Origin: Massilia litorea
Lineage (GTDB): Bacteria; Pseudomonadota; Gammaproteobacteria; Burkholderiales; Burkholderiaceae_D
Direction of reading: 5' to 3'
NCBI RefSeq assembly: GCF_015101885.1
Contig: NZ_CP062941.1
Location: 310,001-374,000, forward strand
Length of the DNA stretch: 64,000 nt
Below, piece after piece: positions 22,979 to 31,827 of this stretch; position 1 is the stretch's first letter; each line of letters begins with the position of its first letter. The translations under genes were made by a program, and so were the position numbers. The notes under the pieces were generated by a model. That model saw nothing but the letters and a program-made list of their open reading frames with translations, made no database searches and was not told the origin of the DNA.

Positions 22979-23914
22979 TTATCCCGCGTCAGTAAGCGCT
23001 TCTTGCGCGCCCCGCCACATCACCCGATTGCGTCCGCCCTGCTTGGCCCGATACAACTGCACATCCGCCGCCTCGAACAGCGCTGCCGAGCTTTCCGCCT
23101 GGGCCGGGTCGAGGCTGGCGCCGCCGATGCTGACCGTGATGCAGGACGCCGCCGCGGAACCGGCATGGGCGATCATCAGCTCGGCCACTGCCTGGCGCAA
23201 GGCCTGCGCGATCTGCAGCGCCTGAACGGCATCGGTTTCCGGCATCAGGAGCACCAGCTCTTCGCCGCCGTAGCGCGCCGCCAGGTCGGCCGGGCGCCGC
23301 ATGTGGGTGCCGGCCACGCGCGCAACCGCACGCAGGGCGCGGTCGCCGGCCGGGTGGCCATATAAATCGTTGAACTGTTTAAAGGAGTCGATGTCGAGCA
23401 GGGCCAGCGACAGCGGCCGGCCGCTGCGGCGGGCGCGCTGCCATTCGAGGTCGTAGACGTCGTCGAAGCGGCGCCGGTTGGCCAGCTCGGTCAGGCCGTC
23501 GACGTGGGCCAGGTGTTCGAGCAGGCGCCGCTGGCGCACCAATTGAAGGTGCAGCGCCACCCGCGCCAGCACCACCGTCGCATTGAAGGGCTTGGCGATG
23601 TAGTCGGAGGCGCCCATCTTGAGGCCGGCCGCTTCGTCTTCCGGACGGTCGAGGCCCGAAATGAAGATGACCGAGACGTGTTCGGTCTGGGGCGTGGCGC
23701 GCAGGCGGCGCAGGACTTCGAAGCCGCTCATGTCCGGCATCATCACGTCGAGCAGGACCAGGTCGGGCACGTGGCGCGTCGCGCGCTCGACGGCCTGGGC
23801 GCCGTTCTTCGCGAGCAGCACCGTGTACTCGGGCTGGAGCAGCTCGCACAGCACGTCACGGTTGACCGGGTCGTCGTCGGCGACCAGGACTTTCTGCGGT
23901 TCGGCTGGCGTCAT
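22979..23914 (-). CDS. Receiver-GGDEF response regulator, diguanylate cyclase
   Basis: 311 residues. Receiver at about 8-120 with phospho-Asp in LVLLDVMMPDMSG and Lys in IAKPFN, then GGDEF at about 150-305 with active motif GGEEL and an inhibitory-site RxxD exactly five residues upstream (RPADLAARYGGEEL). Such proteins make c-di-GMP on phosphorylation. ATG 23914 is preferred: it overlaps the kinase stop (ATGA) and has GGAGGA at good spacing, whereas ATG 23920 is too close to that site. Last gene of the five-gene operon, so probably the output of the hybrid kinase. Confidence 0.9.
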   Translation of the reverse strand: MTPAEPQKVLVADDDPVNRDVLCELLQPEYTVLLAKNGAQAVERATRHVPDLVLLDVMMPDMSGFEVLRRLRATPQTEHVSVIFISGLDRPEDEAAGLKMGASDYIAKPFNATVVLARVALHLQLVRQRRLLEHLAHVDGLTELANRRRFDDVYDLEWQRARRSGRPLSLALLDIDSFKQFNDLYGHPAGDRALRAVARVAGTHMRRPADLAARYGGEELVLLMPETDAVQALQIAQALRQAVAELMIAHAGSAAASCITVSIGGASLDPAQAESSAALFEAADVQLYRAKQGGRNRVMWRGAQEALTDAG

Positions 23915-29610: not shown

Positions 29611-31827
29611 TCAGAACCGGTAATCGACGCGCAAGGCGACTGCGCGCGGCTCGCTCGGCACGGTCATGCCGAAGCTGTCGATCGTGACCGGCTCGACCTT
29701 GTTCTGCAGGTTCTTCACGCGCAGCAGCACGCTCCAGGGCGAACCCGCCGGCTCGTAGCCCAGGCGCATATCGGTCTCGGTGCGGCCCGGAATCCGGTAG
29801 CGCAGCAGCTGGCTCGGCACGCCGATCGTGGATTCACTGCTGCTGCGCGAGAAGACGCCGGCTTTCATTACGCCGTCGCGCAGCTGGAAGCCATGTTCGT
29901 AGCCGAGCGTGAACACGGCGCGCGGCGCGCGGTCGAGTTTGTAACCGGCCCAGGAGTGAACGCCGTCCGGGCTGTAGGCGAGATAGTGGGCGTCGGTGAA
30001 CGCGAGCGTATAACTCAGGCGCCCTGCCGCCACCGGTTTCAGCACGCCCTCCACTTCCACGCCCTTGACGCTGGCGGCGCCCGCGTTGGCGGTGACGAAG
30101 CGCGGCACGCCCTGCACCATGGCCACGCCCGACAGCTGCAGGTTGTCGTAGGCGTAGCGGTAGGCGCTGAGGTTCAGGCCGGCGCGGTTGGCCCAGAAGC
30201 GGGTCTTGATACCCAGCTCGTAAGCCTTCAGCGTTTCGGGACGGTAGACCAGCGTAGGATCCGGCGCCGCTCCGTCATTGAAGCCACCCGACTTGTAGCC
30301 GGTCGAGACCGTGGCATAGGCCATGGTCGATGGCGCCAGGTCGAACTCGGCGCCGAGGCGCCAGGTGGTCTTGCCGGTGGCAAGGGCGGCCGCATTCGGC
30401 AGGGCGATATCGGTGGCCGGGTTGAACACCTGTTCCTGCTGCAGGTTGGTCGAACCGTAGCGCGACTTGCGGTCTTCGGTACGGCGGGCGCCGGCGGTCA
30501 GGCGCAAGCCGTCCAACGCGCGCCATGTGACCTGGCCGAAGAGCGCGCGGCTGCTTGAGGTGACCGGATTCGACGGGAACACGTAGTACGGAGGCAGCCC
30601 GATGAGTTCGAGGTCGCGGAAGGTGGCCAGCTGCGCCATCTCTTCGCGAAACCAGTAGATGCCGGCCTGCCCCGATACGGGGCCGTTGCCGTTCGTCGCC
30701 ACGCGCAGCTCGTGCGAATCCTGCTCGAAGCTGCCGTCGAAGTCCTGGCGCACGCCCAGCGCGAAGCCGGGCACGATACGGTAGTAATAGTTGACCAGGA
30801 AATCGTGGTCGAACCTGCGGTGCGCGCCCAGGTAGTGCAAGGTGGCCGGGCCCAGGTCCCAGGAGAATTCGGCGCCCAGACCGGTGCTGGCGCGGCGGCT
30901 GTGGCCCTGCTCCGGCACCGTGTTCGGCGGCACGAAGGCATTCGTCAGGCGCGCGACCGTGCCGGCGTCGTACGGTACCGGGTTGCCGGTCTCGATACCC
31001 TGGTAAAAATTCGTGTCGGGGACGATGACGTCGTTGTTGTCGCGCTGGACGCTGCGGTCCAGGCGCAGCAGCAGCGAAGCCGAGGAGCCGAGCGCGAACT
31101 TCGCCGACAGGCGGCCTGTCGTGGCGTCGCGGTCCTGGCCGAGCGTGTGCGGCGTGCCCTGCCCGTTGCGCAGCAGGCTGTCGCGGCGGTTTGTCGACAC
31201 GGCGGCGCGCAGCGCGATGGCGTCGCTCACCGGTACGTTCAGCACCGCGTCGGCCTTGCGGCTGCCGTGGTTGCCCATTTCGACGCCCGCGGCGCCTTCG
31301 AAGCGCGCGGTCGGCGCGCGCGAGATGACGTTGACGACGCCAGCCGTGGTGTTGCGGCCGTACAGGGTGCCCTGCGGGCCGCGCAGCACTTCGATGCGGT
31401 CGACGTCGAGGAAGTCGAGGTTCTGGCCGTGCGGACGGGCGATGTAGATGCCGTCCATCATGAAGGCGGCCGACGGCTCTCCCTTCTCGGTGGCGTCGGC
31501 GTTCGACACGCCGCGGATGGTGATCCGCAGGCCGTCGGCGGCGCCGTTGATGGCCACGCCGGGCAGGCGCGCGCCGATGTCGGACGGGCGATCGAGTCCG
31601 GCCGCGGCGAGCGCGGCGCCGTCGACGACCGACATGGCGACCGGTGTTTTCGATTCAAGGCCGCTGGTGCGCTGCGCGGTGACGATCACTTCCTGGATTC
31701 CGCCTTCGGCCGTATGCATGACTGCGGCGGCCGGCGCCTCCTGTGCTGCCGCGGCAGCGCCGCAGACGATACCCGCGATGGCGAGCGCCAGCGGCGTGAG
31801 GTTCGAACGAACCTGACGATTGGACAT
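29611..31827 (-). CDS. TonB-dependent outer-membrane receptor (first gene of the sensor operon)
   Basis: 738 residues. Signal peptide (about 1-27, ending AAAAAQ), a plug domain (about 45-165) with EVIVTAQR and the plug hallmark VEVLRGPQGTLYGRNTTAGVVN-type sequence, then a beta-barrel ending in VDYRF with terminal Phe. No N-terminal signalling domain of the FecA type. Similar receptors serve siderophores, but also sterol, terpene or aromatic uptake in xenobiotic degraders, so the substrate is open. ATG 31827 has AGGGGA upstream. Leads the operon receptor, CruF-like, MpaB-like, hybrid kinase, GGDEF. Confidence 0.9.
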   Translation of the reverse strand: MSNRQVRSNLTPLALAIAGIVCGAAAAAQEAPAAAVMHTAEGGIQEVIVTAQRTSGLESKTPVAMSVVDGAALAAAGLDRPSDIGARLPGVAINGAADGLRITIRGVSNADATEKGEPSAAFMMDGIYIARPHGQNLDFLDVDRIEVLRGPQGTLYGRNTTAGVVNVISRAPTARFEGAAGVEMGNHGSRKADAVLNVPVSDAIALRAAVSTNRRDSLLRNGQGTPHTLGQDRDATTGRLSAKFALGSSASLLLRLDRSVQRDNNDVIVPDTNFYQGIETGNPVPYDAGTVARLTNAFVPPNTVPEQGHSRRASTGLGAEFSWDLGPATLHYLGAHRRFDHDFLVNYYYRIVPGFALGVRQDFDGSFEQDSHELRVATNGNGPVSGQAGIYWFREEMAQLATFRDLELIGLPPYYVFPSNPVTSSSRALFGQVTWRALDGLRLTAGARRTEDRKSRYGSTNLQQEQVFNPATDIALPNAAALATGKTTWRLGAEFDLAPSTMAYATVSTGYKSGGFNDGAAPDPTLVYRPETLKAYELGIKTRFWANRAGLNLSAYRYAYDNLQLSGVAMVQGVPRFVTANAGAASVKGVEVEGVLKPVAAGRLSYTLAFTDAHYLAYSPDGVHSWAGYKLDRAPRAVFTLGYEHGFQLRDGVMKAGVFSRSSSESTIGVPSQLLRYRIPGRTETDMRLGYEPAGSPWSVLLRVKNLQNKVEPVTIDSFGMTVPSEPRAVALRVDYRF

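Follow-up and report, generated by a model that had tools for sequence, protein, structure and literature searches.

A conserved TonB receptor, 7TMR-DISM hybrid kinase and diguanylate cyclase block with CruF-like and DUF2236 genes in Massilia litorea and its relatives

Among the closest described systems to the locus reported here are the 7TMR-DISM receptor kinases and the PleD/DgcR-like diguanylate cyclases; many 7TMR-DISM receptors have no known ligand. Our locus is a run of five genes on the minus strand (positions 22979-31827) of a 64,000-nucleotide stretch of the Massilia litorea genome (NZ_CP062941.1, positions 310,001 to 374,000; 'the window' hereafter) that encodes a TonB-dependent receptor, a CruF-like (DUF422) membrane protein, a DUF2236 oxygenase-like protein, a 7TMR-DISM hybrid kinase, and a receiver-GGDEF cyclase (Table 1). 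It has in common with these systems the DISMED2-7TM input, the HisKA/HATPase domains, the receivers, and the GGDEF response regulator; unlike them, it is encoded together with a TonB receptor and two enzyme-like proteins. We take the domain set of the kinase to be of the RetS/LadS type. The best NCBIfam equivalogs fall short of their cut-offs (BarA, 448 of 890 bits; PleD, 257 of 474 bits). In the open-licence literature we found no description of a DUF2236 or 7TMR-DISM operon with a TonB receptor, a carotenoid or a Massilia cyclase; the locus is a conserved signalling block of known families for whose combination we found no description there.

Our preferred reading, to which we assign a probability of roughly 0.55, is that the block encodes a self-contained sensing unit, that is, a TonB receptor, a DISM phosphorelay, and a diguanylate cyclase, together with an accessory enzyme pair that acts on a hydrophobic, perhaps terpenoid, ligand. 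The receptor would bring the ligand into the periplasm, where the DISMED2/7TM part of the kinase would detect it; phosphate would then pass from HisKA to a receiver, to the Hpt domain, and to the receiver of the GGDEF protein, which would change the level of cyclic di-GMP (c-di-GMP), a link supported by gene fusion. The CruF-like protein and the DUF2236 protein, which has the predicted fold of the latex-clearing protein Lcp, would be a coupled pair at the inner membrane (a coupling also supported by fusion); judging from their families and fold, both may act on C=C bonds of one hydrophobic and probably terpenoid molecule, by hydration and by oxidative cleavage, and so alter or clear the ligand. 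Gene content and one gene remnant suggest that the enzymes tune the circuit and are not needed for it, having been lost repeatedly, often with the hydratase-like gene lost first. At the level of sequence comparison, there is good evidence for the receptor-kinase-cyclase core and for the coupling of the two enzymes.

We searched for the gene set in the Oxalobacteraceae ('the family'), to which the genome of the window belongs by its kin. A DUF2236 profile matched 70 of 392 family genomes (four best candidates per genome scored), 69 of them strongly and one (G074) weakly; the 69 strong loci (the window and 68 others) were mapped by tblastn. All five genes are found together at 49 of the 69 loci, including three in which the enzyme genes are swapped and one, L159, with a broken frame; 12 have the receptor and DUF2236 genes without an intact CruF-like gene at the locus (L123 also lacks the cyclase there), and eight, all from genus g32, have no separate kinase nearby. 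A DISM sensor is encoded downstream of DUF2236 at all 69. A search with the CruF-like protein identified 25 loci. In 23 of them, the five genes are all present on one strand (L030 and L037 have the middle two exchanged, and L029 has broken reading frames); the remaining two, L028 and L041, are outside the family and have just the CruF-like and DUF2236 genes. The best-matching locus in the collection is that of Massilia sp. Mn16-1_5, in which the flanking ATPase gene is also found. The CruF-like profile, for which up to six candidates were scored in each genome, gave matches in 8 of 399 genomes in the order (4 strongly) and 2 of 369 in the class (strongly only that of the window). An earlier, sequence-only reading of this DNA had left co-occurrence and conserved gene order to be checked, and the five-gene counts in both searches answer in its favor. 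The 49 five-gene loci form 10 neighborhood groups by their upstream flanks and 17 by both flanks (10 and 20, respectively, for a set of 70 that spans every locus type and contains L028 and L041); some single-locus groups may stem from short flanks. With flanks this varied, the gene set has not been kept by slow drift of one region alone.

Natural fusions identify which members of the block belong together. In all eight g32 genomes, the DISM sensor (43-49% identical to that of the window) runs directly into a GGDEF domain with an intact motif (Pfam confirms the two that were scanned); in five of the eight, the CruF-like and DUF2236 proteins are encoded by a single open reading frame (ORF) of 743 to 759 amino acids (Pfam confirms two). 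Among the other three, DUF2236 is still preceded by a short hydrophobic N-terminal stretch in L155, CruF is missing from L156, and L161 is cut. Four proteins thus become two, so the hydratase-like protein is tied to the oxygenase-like protein and the DISM sensor is tied to the cyclase; these fusions support both the c-di-GMP output and the pairing of the enzymes that had been proposed from the sequence of the window. The residues expected for signaling are retained at the aligned loci: in the kinase, the HATPase Asn (74/74), the two receiver Asp residues (73/74 and 74/74), and the Hpt His (73/73); in the cyclase, the receiver Asp (72/72). In the 80 loci with a GGDEF match (eight being the g32 fusions), GG[DE]E is found in 80, the I-site Arg in 78, and the I-site Asp in 75. 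The best match of the receptor to a solved chain is a pesticin receptor (E 2.4e-19, residues 60-228).

A conserved element upstream of the receptor gene also supports, at the sequence level, a single unit. Of the 69 loci, 61 are of the receptor type, and we inspected the upstream stretch at 59 of these. The full pattern, CTRTTKCC-N13-TGNTAGACT, has an exact match at 37 and is within two mismatches at 53, and base-shuffled stretches never come closer than five mismatches; TGNTAGACT alone is exact at 55, has one mismatch at three, and is missing from L058. The element resembles an extended -10 preceded by a -35 region that would be non-standard. TGNTAGACT is found on the operon strand in 9 of 13 additional loci identified with the sensor (L174-L186; not in the other four) and on neither strand of 11 loci (the eight from g32, L028, L041, and L068). 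The genome of the window contains one exact copy of the full pattern and one other place with two mismatches (a backward control pattern has two matches); because there is a single exact copy, the search of this genome with the element identified no regulon. On the minus strand, a simple promoter scan detected nothing of the sigma-70 type, and the search for an RNA family in the 5' leader gave one match only, far below its gathering score (14.7 bits vs 45).

The enzyme genes are optional. A sensor profile search of 284 family genomes (E 1e-40, six candidates scored per genome) matched 46, 13 of which were outside the DUF2236-match set; these 13 loci were examined by tblastn at 1e-4 within 18 kb. 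At 11 of them, the receptor, kinase, and receiver-GGDEF genes are present without CruF and DUF2236 at the locus; of the other two, G079 has the kinase and cyclase alone and G1003 has a distant DISM-GGDEF protein. The sequence-only reading had the kinase sense the product of the enzymes or its absence; because these 11 loci keep the core without either enzyme, the kinase need not do so, and we reject an obligatory product as a necessity. (The presence of the receptor or the enzymes at nearly every sensor was discarded as uninformative, both being common.) In a quick receptor tree of 71 loci, 48 have both enzymes, 12 have DUF2236 only, 11 have neither, and none has CruF only; the tree requires at least seven changes for each enzyme gene, counts that cannot tell gain from loss. 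In L134, however, a 3' remnant of CruF lies before a second kinase gene, which points to loss of the enzyme gene. Searches of 13 whole CruF-less genomes located an intact CruF elsewhere in one (G1014), the remnant in one (G1086), and none in 11; the CruF-like profile search found no CruF in G056. Because CruF is never alone at a receptor locus, the distribution suggests that its function depends on DUF2236.

A second, diverged DISM kinase is encoded in the block at 6 of the 12 CruF-less receptor loci (L056, L130, L132, L133, L134, L157) and in the enzyme-less L178; in G1014, the intact CruF sits with a second DISM kinase elsewhere in the genome (L180).

Partial Mantel correlations across 49 loci are highest for sensor-CruF (0.75), sensor-receptor (0.71), and receptor-CruF (0.71), followed by receptor-DUF2236 (0.59), sensor-DUF2236 (0.41), and CruF-DUF2236 (0.38). 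These values fit co-divergence on the ligand side; we give them little weight because the permutations ignore relatedness.

The DUF2236 protein matches Pfam MPAB_Lcp_cat (49.5 bits vs a cut-off of 23) and LcpK30 by sequence (E 5e-10 and 2e-10). Foldseek aligns its predicted model (pLDDT 77.7) with Lcp at TMt 0.67-0.73 and 17-18% identity (best chain 5o1l_B, E 1.5e-09, TMt 0.73, rmsd 5.7); a match to t-anethole oxygenase (8s1j, E 0.17) was too weak for use. The Lcp heme-site residues Arg164, Thr168, and His198, which the paper on the Lcp structure (PMC5522427) calls crucial, have equivalents in the window and in 69, 67, and 68 of the 69 loci, respectively. The Thr168 equivalent is Ala in L158 and L160, relatives of the window that have lost CruF; the one locus with a changed His is L159, in which the frame is broken. 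Values of dN/dS between the window and L105 range from 0.07 (cyclase) to 0.34 (CruF); comparing the window with L160 and with L105, they are 0.61 and 0.32 for DUF2236, 0.28 and 0.25 for the receptor, and 0.31 and 0.18 for the sensor, so the rise in L160 is strongest in DUF2236. A crude Kyte-Doolittle scan for an export signal found no hydrophobic N-terminal segment, the single hydrophobic segment being residues 119-138 of the longer ORF.

The CruF-like protein matches Pfam Caroten_synth (109.3 bits vs a cut-off of 25). Its predicted model is helical (pLDDT 80.9) and has no structural match in the PDB at E 0.001; its sequence has nothing convincing in the PDB (one match, E 0.41). Among plasmid records, the 13 DUF422 and 12 DUF2236 matches are all below 60% identity and none covers 80% of the query; in the three annotated plasmid DUF422 stretches that we inspected, the annotation lists neither DUF2236 nor any other carotenoid gene to a distance of about 6 kb, and a fourth stretch, surrounding a DUF2236 match, carries no annotation. 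In one plasmid (Legionella lytica, L168), a diguanylate cyclase gene is located some 4 kb away from the DUF422 gene, which also has a gene for a cyclic-nucleotide-binding protein in its vicinity.

The repeated loss of the enzymes while the receptor and sensor stay is also the pattern of listeners to a signal. The block could then be an autoinducer circuit in which the enzymes convert an isoprenoid of the producing cell's membrane into a diffusible apo-terpenoid, which is taken back up through the receptor and sensed by the DISM kinase; the enzyme-less genomes would only listen. The membrane location of the CruF-like protein, the missing N-terminal hydrophobic segment of DUF2236, the seven g32 loci with an enzyme gene and a sensor and no receptor near, and the absence of a tie to CrtI (see below) agree with this circuit. 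However, the secreted product is purely hypothetical, and loss of optional ligand-clearing enzymes would give the same pattern; also, small terpenoids would be unusual ligands for a TonB receptor, which counts against a circuit of this kind. We consider it unlikely; its fullest form, a new terpenoid-derived bacterial signal system in which a signal made by the enzyme pair from an endogenous isoprenoid acts through the TonB receptor and the DISM phosphorelay on c-di-GMP and enzyme-less relatives listen, is somewhat more doubtful again.

Alternatively, the main job of the block might be the uptake and breakdown of an environmental terpenoid, with the kinase and cyclase only announcing food. A receptor and two modifying enzymes are encoded in one block, and Lcp, with the same fold, cleaves polyisoprene. 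A loose parallel is found in PMC5979037, which names TonB-dependent receptors among the transporters of the outer membrane that might serve uptake in a rubber-degrading Gram-negative bacterium. Nevertheless, there is no further catabolic gene in the block of the window, and it is the enzymes that are dispensable while the signaling genes stay; we therefore regard a catabolic operon as improbable.

The CruF family also raises the question of a carotenoid substrate. The genome of the window encodes CrtB and CrtI (over the NCBIfam cut-offs); the neighboring genes code for a lycopene cyclase, a glycosyltransferase, and a polyprenyl synthase (Pfam), and the genome also has hopanoid genes. (The carotenoid cluster, L163 9333-15773, is near C1:2337000-2344000 of this genome and includes a CrtZ-like gene recognized by eye only.) We counted CrtI across the 392 genomes (E 1e-60, three best candidates per genome scored; a few genomes are incomplete), and the count does not support a carotenoid link: CrtI-like genes were found in 37 of the 69 operon genomes and not in the other 32; among the 54 genomes that have a CruF gene at the locus, 29 gave no CrtI match. 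Because of these 32 genomes, the cell's own carotenoid is not the general substrate; the carotenoid-like compound that the sequence-only reading offered as one possibility also fits poorly with the CruF equivalog cut-offs, which are widely missed. A further reading, in which carotenoids or hopanoids made by the cell itself are the substrates and the kinase senses the state of the membrane, is very improbable: the genes for both lipid classes in the genome of the window and the membrane CruF-like protein, fused to DUF2236 in five genomes, speak for it, but the 32 genomes without a CrtI match speak against it, and in genus g1 the distribution is opposite to expectation (CrtI is present in all 12 genomes that have no CruF at the locus, and the eight without CrtI all keep CruF). 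Squalene, ubiquinone, polyprenols, and an imported terpenoid are the remaining candidate substrates.

Several observations weigh against the sensing unit as we propose it. The CruF-like protein misses the NCBIfam CruF equivalog cut-offs (NF045693, 82.6 of 400 bits; TIGR03460, 70.7 of 154.7; NF041333, 41.1 of 300), and DISMED2 is predicted, according to a review (PMC8846402), to sense carbohydrates, not terpenoids. No receptor is encoded near seven of the eight g32 loci, the eighth being cut by a contig end. The three Lcp-type residues are all kept at 10 other receptor-type CruF-less loci, so DUF2236 does not always decay once CruF is gone. Of the two loci outside the family, L041 (a Burkholderiaceae metagenome-assembled genome) speaks for the unit in that a DISM-GGDEF gene follows CruF-DUF2236; the sensor is only 25% identical to that of the window, and the arrangement may be an independent pairing. 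This case is weakened by the GGDEF motif of L041, which looks degenerate on inspection by eye. In L028 (Comamonadaceae), the enzyme pair is present, but the 20.8 kb of the locus showed no relative of the sensor, and no DISM domain was found in the two next large ORFs. In L028, the pair is beside a gene on the other strand with a class III nucleotide cyclase domain (Pfam).

At L028 (12247-16377) and L068 (3014-6391), the DUF2236 genes adjoin large genes with class III nucleotide cyclase and AAA domains (Pfam), a possible other second-messenger partner; the DUF2236 match of L068 is weak.

The coordinates of the block are collected in Table 1; the domains were called by Pfam matches above the gathering score on the translated ORFs. 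The placement of five genes on one strand, first read from the sequence of the window, is borne out by the ORFs, translations, and Pfam. The four junctions are a gap and three overlaps: 14 nt between the receptor and CruF-like genes, TGATG between CruF-like and DUF2236, and ATGA between kinase and cyclase, as originally described; the DUF2236/kinase junction, described as ATGATGA, instead reads ATGATGTGG, that is, ATGATG without the final A, with a 4-nt ATGA overlap.

Table 1. Features of the five-gene block (window positions).
Feature	Position	Strand	Basis or remark
TonB-dependent outer-membrane receptor (plug and beta-barrel)	29611..31827	-	Pfam PF07715, PF00593; ATG at 31827
CruF-like/DUF422 inner-membrane protein, hydratase-like, 268 aa	28790..29596	-	Pfam PF04240
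DUF2236/MPAB_Lcp_cat oxygenase-like protein, 476 aa from overlapping ATG	27360..28790	-	Pfam PF09995
7TMR-DISM hybrid histidine kinase, 1150 aa	23911..27363	-	Pfam 7TMR-DISMED2, 7TMR-DISM_7TM, HisKA, HATPase_c, two receiver stretches, Hpt
Receiver-GGDEF diguanylate cyclase, GGEEL motif, RxxD I-site	22979..23914	-	Pfam PF00072, PF00990
Promoter-like element CTRTTKCC-N13-TGNTAGACT	31936..31965	-	108 nt before receptor start codon

DUF422 is encoded once in the genome of the window, and DUF2236 and 7TMR-DISM twice each. A catalase gene is located downstream of the operon (20428-22827; HPII-like, 1006 bits vs a cut-off of 1102) and a PilT/PilU-family ATPase gene upstream, past two other genes; divergent from the operon, a plus-strand gene (32094-32720) encodes a small protein that, judged by eye, has an apparent signal peptide. 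Terminator-like sites in a simple scan are at chance level (5 found vs 4.8 expected). Between the cyclase and catalase genes is an inverted repeat, GTTAGT-TC-ACTAAC (about 22898-22911), that resembles a stretch in the receptor promoter of the window; we rejected an operator shared with the catalase gene, as the GTTAGT-like repeat matched in the window only and is absent from the other 58 receptor upstream stretches.

The interest of the block, which is conserved across many soil-dwelling relatives of Massilia, is that a DISM sensor has as its neighbors a receptor and two enzyme-like proteins whose chemistry can be guessed; with its naturally fused and enzyme-less versions, the question of the ligand is testable, and the answer could add terpenoids to the inputs of c-di-GMP control. 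The two enzyme-like proteins depart from their described relatives in different ways. With the CruF carotenoid hydratases, the CruF-like protein has the membrane family PF04240 in common; it differs in its scores below the equivalog cut-offs and in having no tie to CrtI. The DUF2236 protein is like Lcp in its predicted fold and in its equivalents of Arg164, Thr168, His198, Arg195, and Arg202; in contrast, the residue aligned with Lcp Lys167 is Ser or Ala in 68 of the 69 loci, and Lcp is described as extracellular, unlike this protein, for which the Kyte-Doolittle scan gave no hydrophobic N-terminal segment. As an arrangement, a gene for a small-molecule enzyme beside a hybrid kinase gene resembles the synthase-kinase quorum-sensing pairs of the CqsA/CqsS type or JqsA/JqsS; however, the enzyme families of those pairs are unrelated to the two encoded here, and the output of this block is c-di-GMP.

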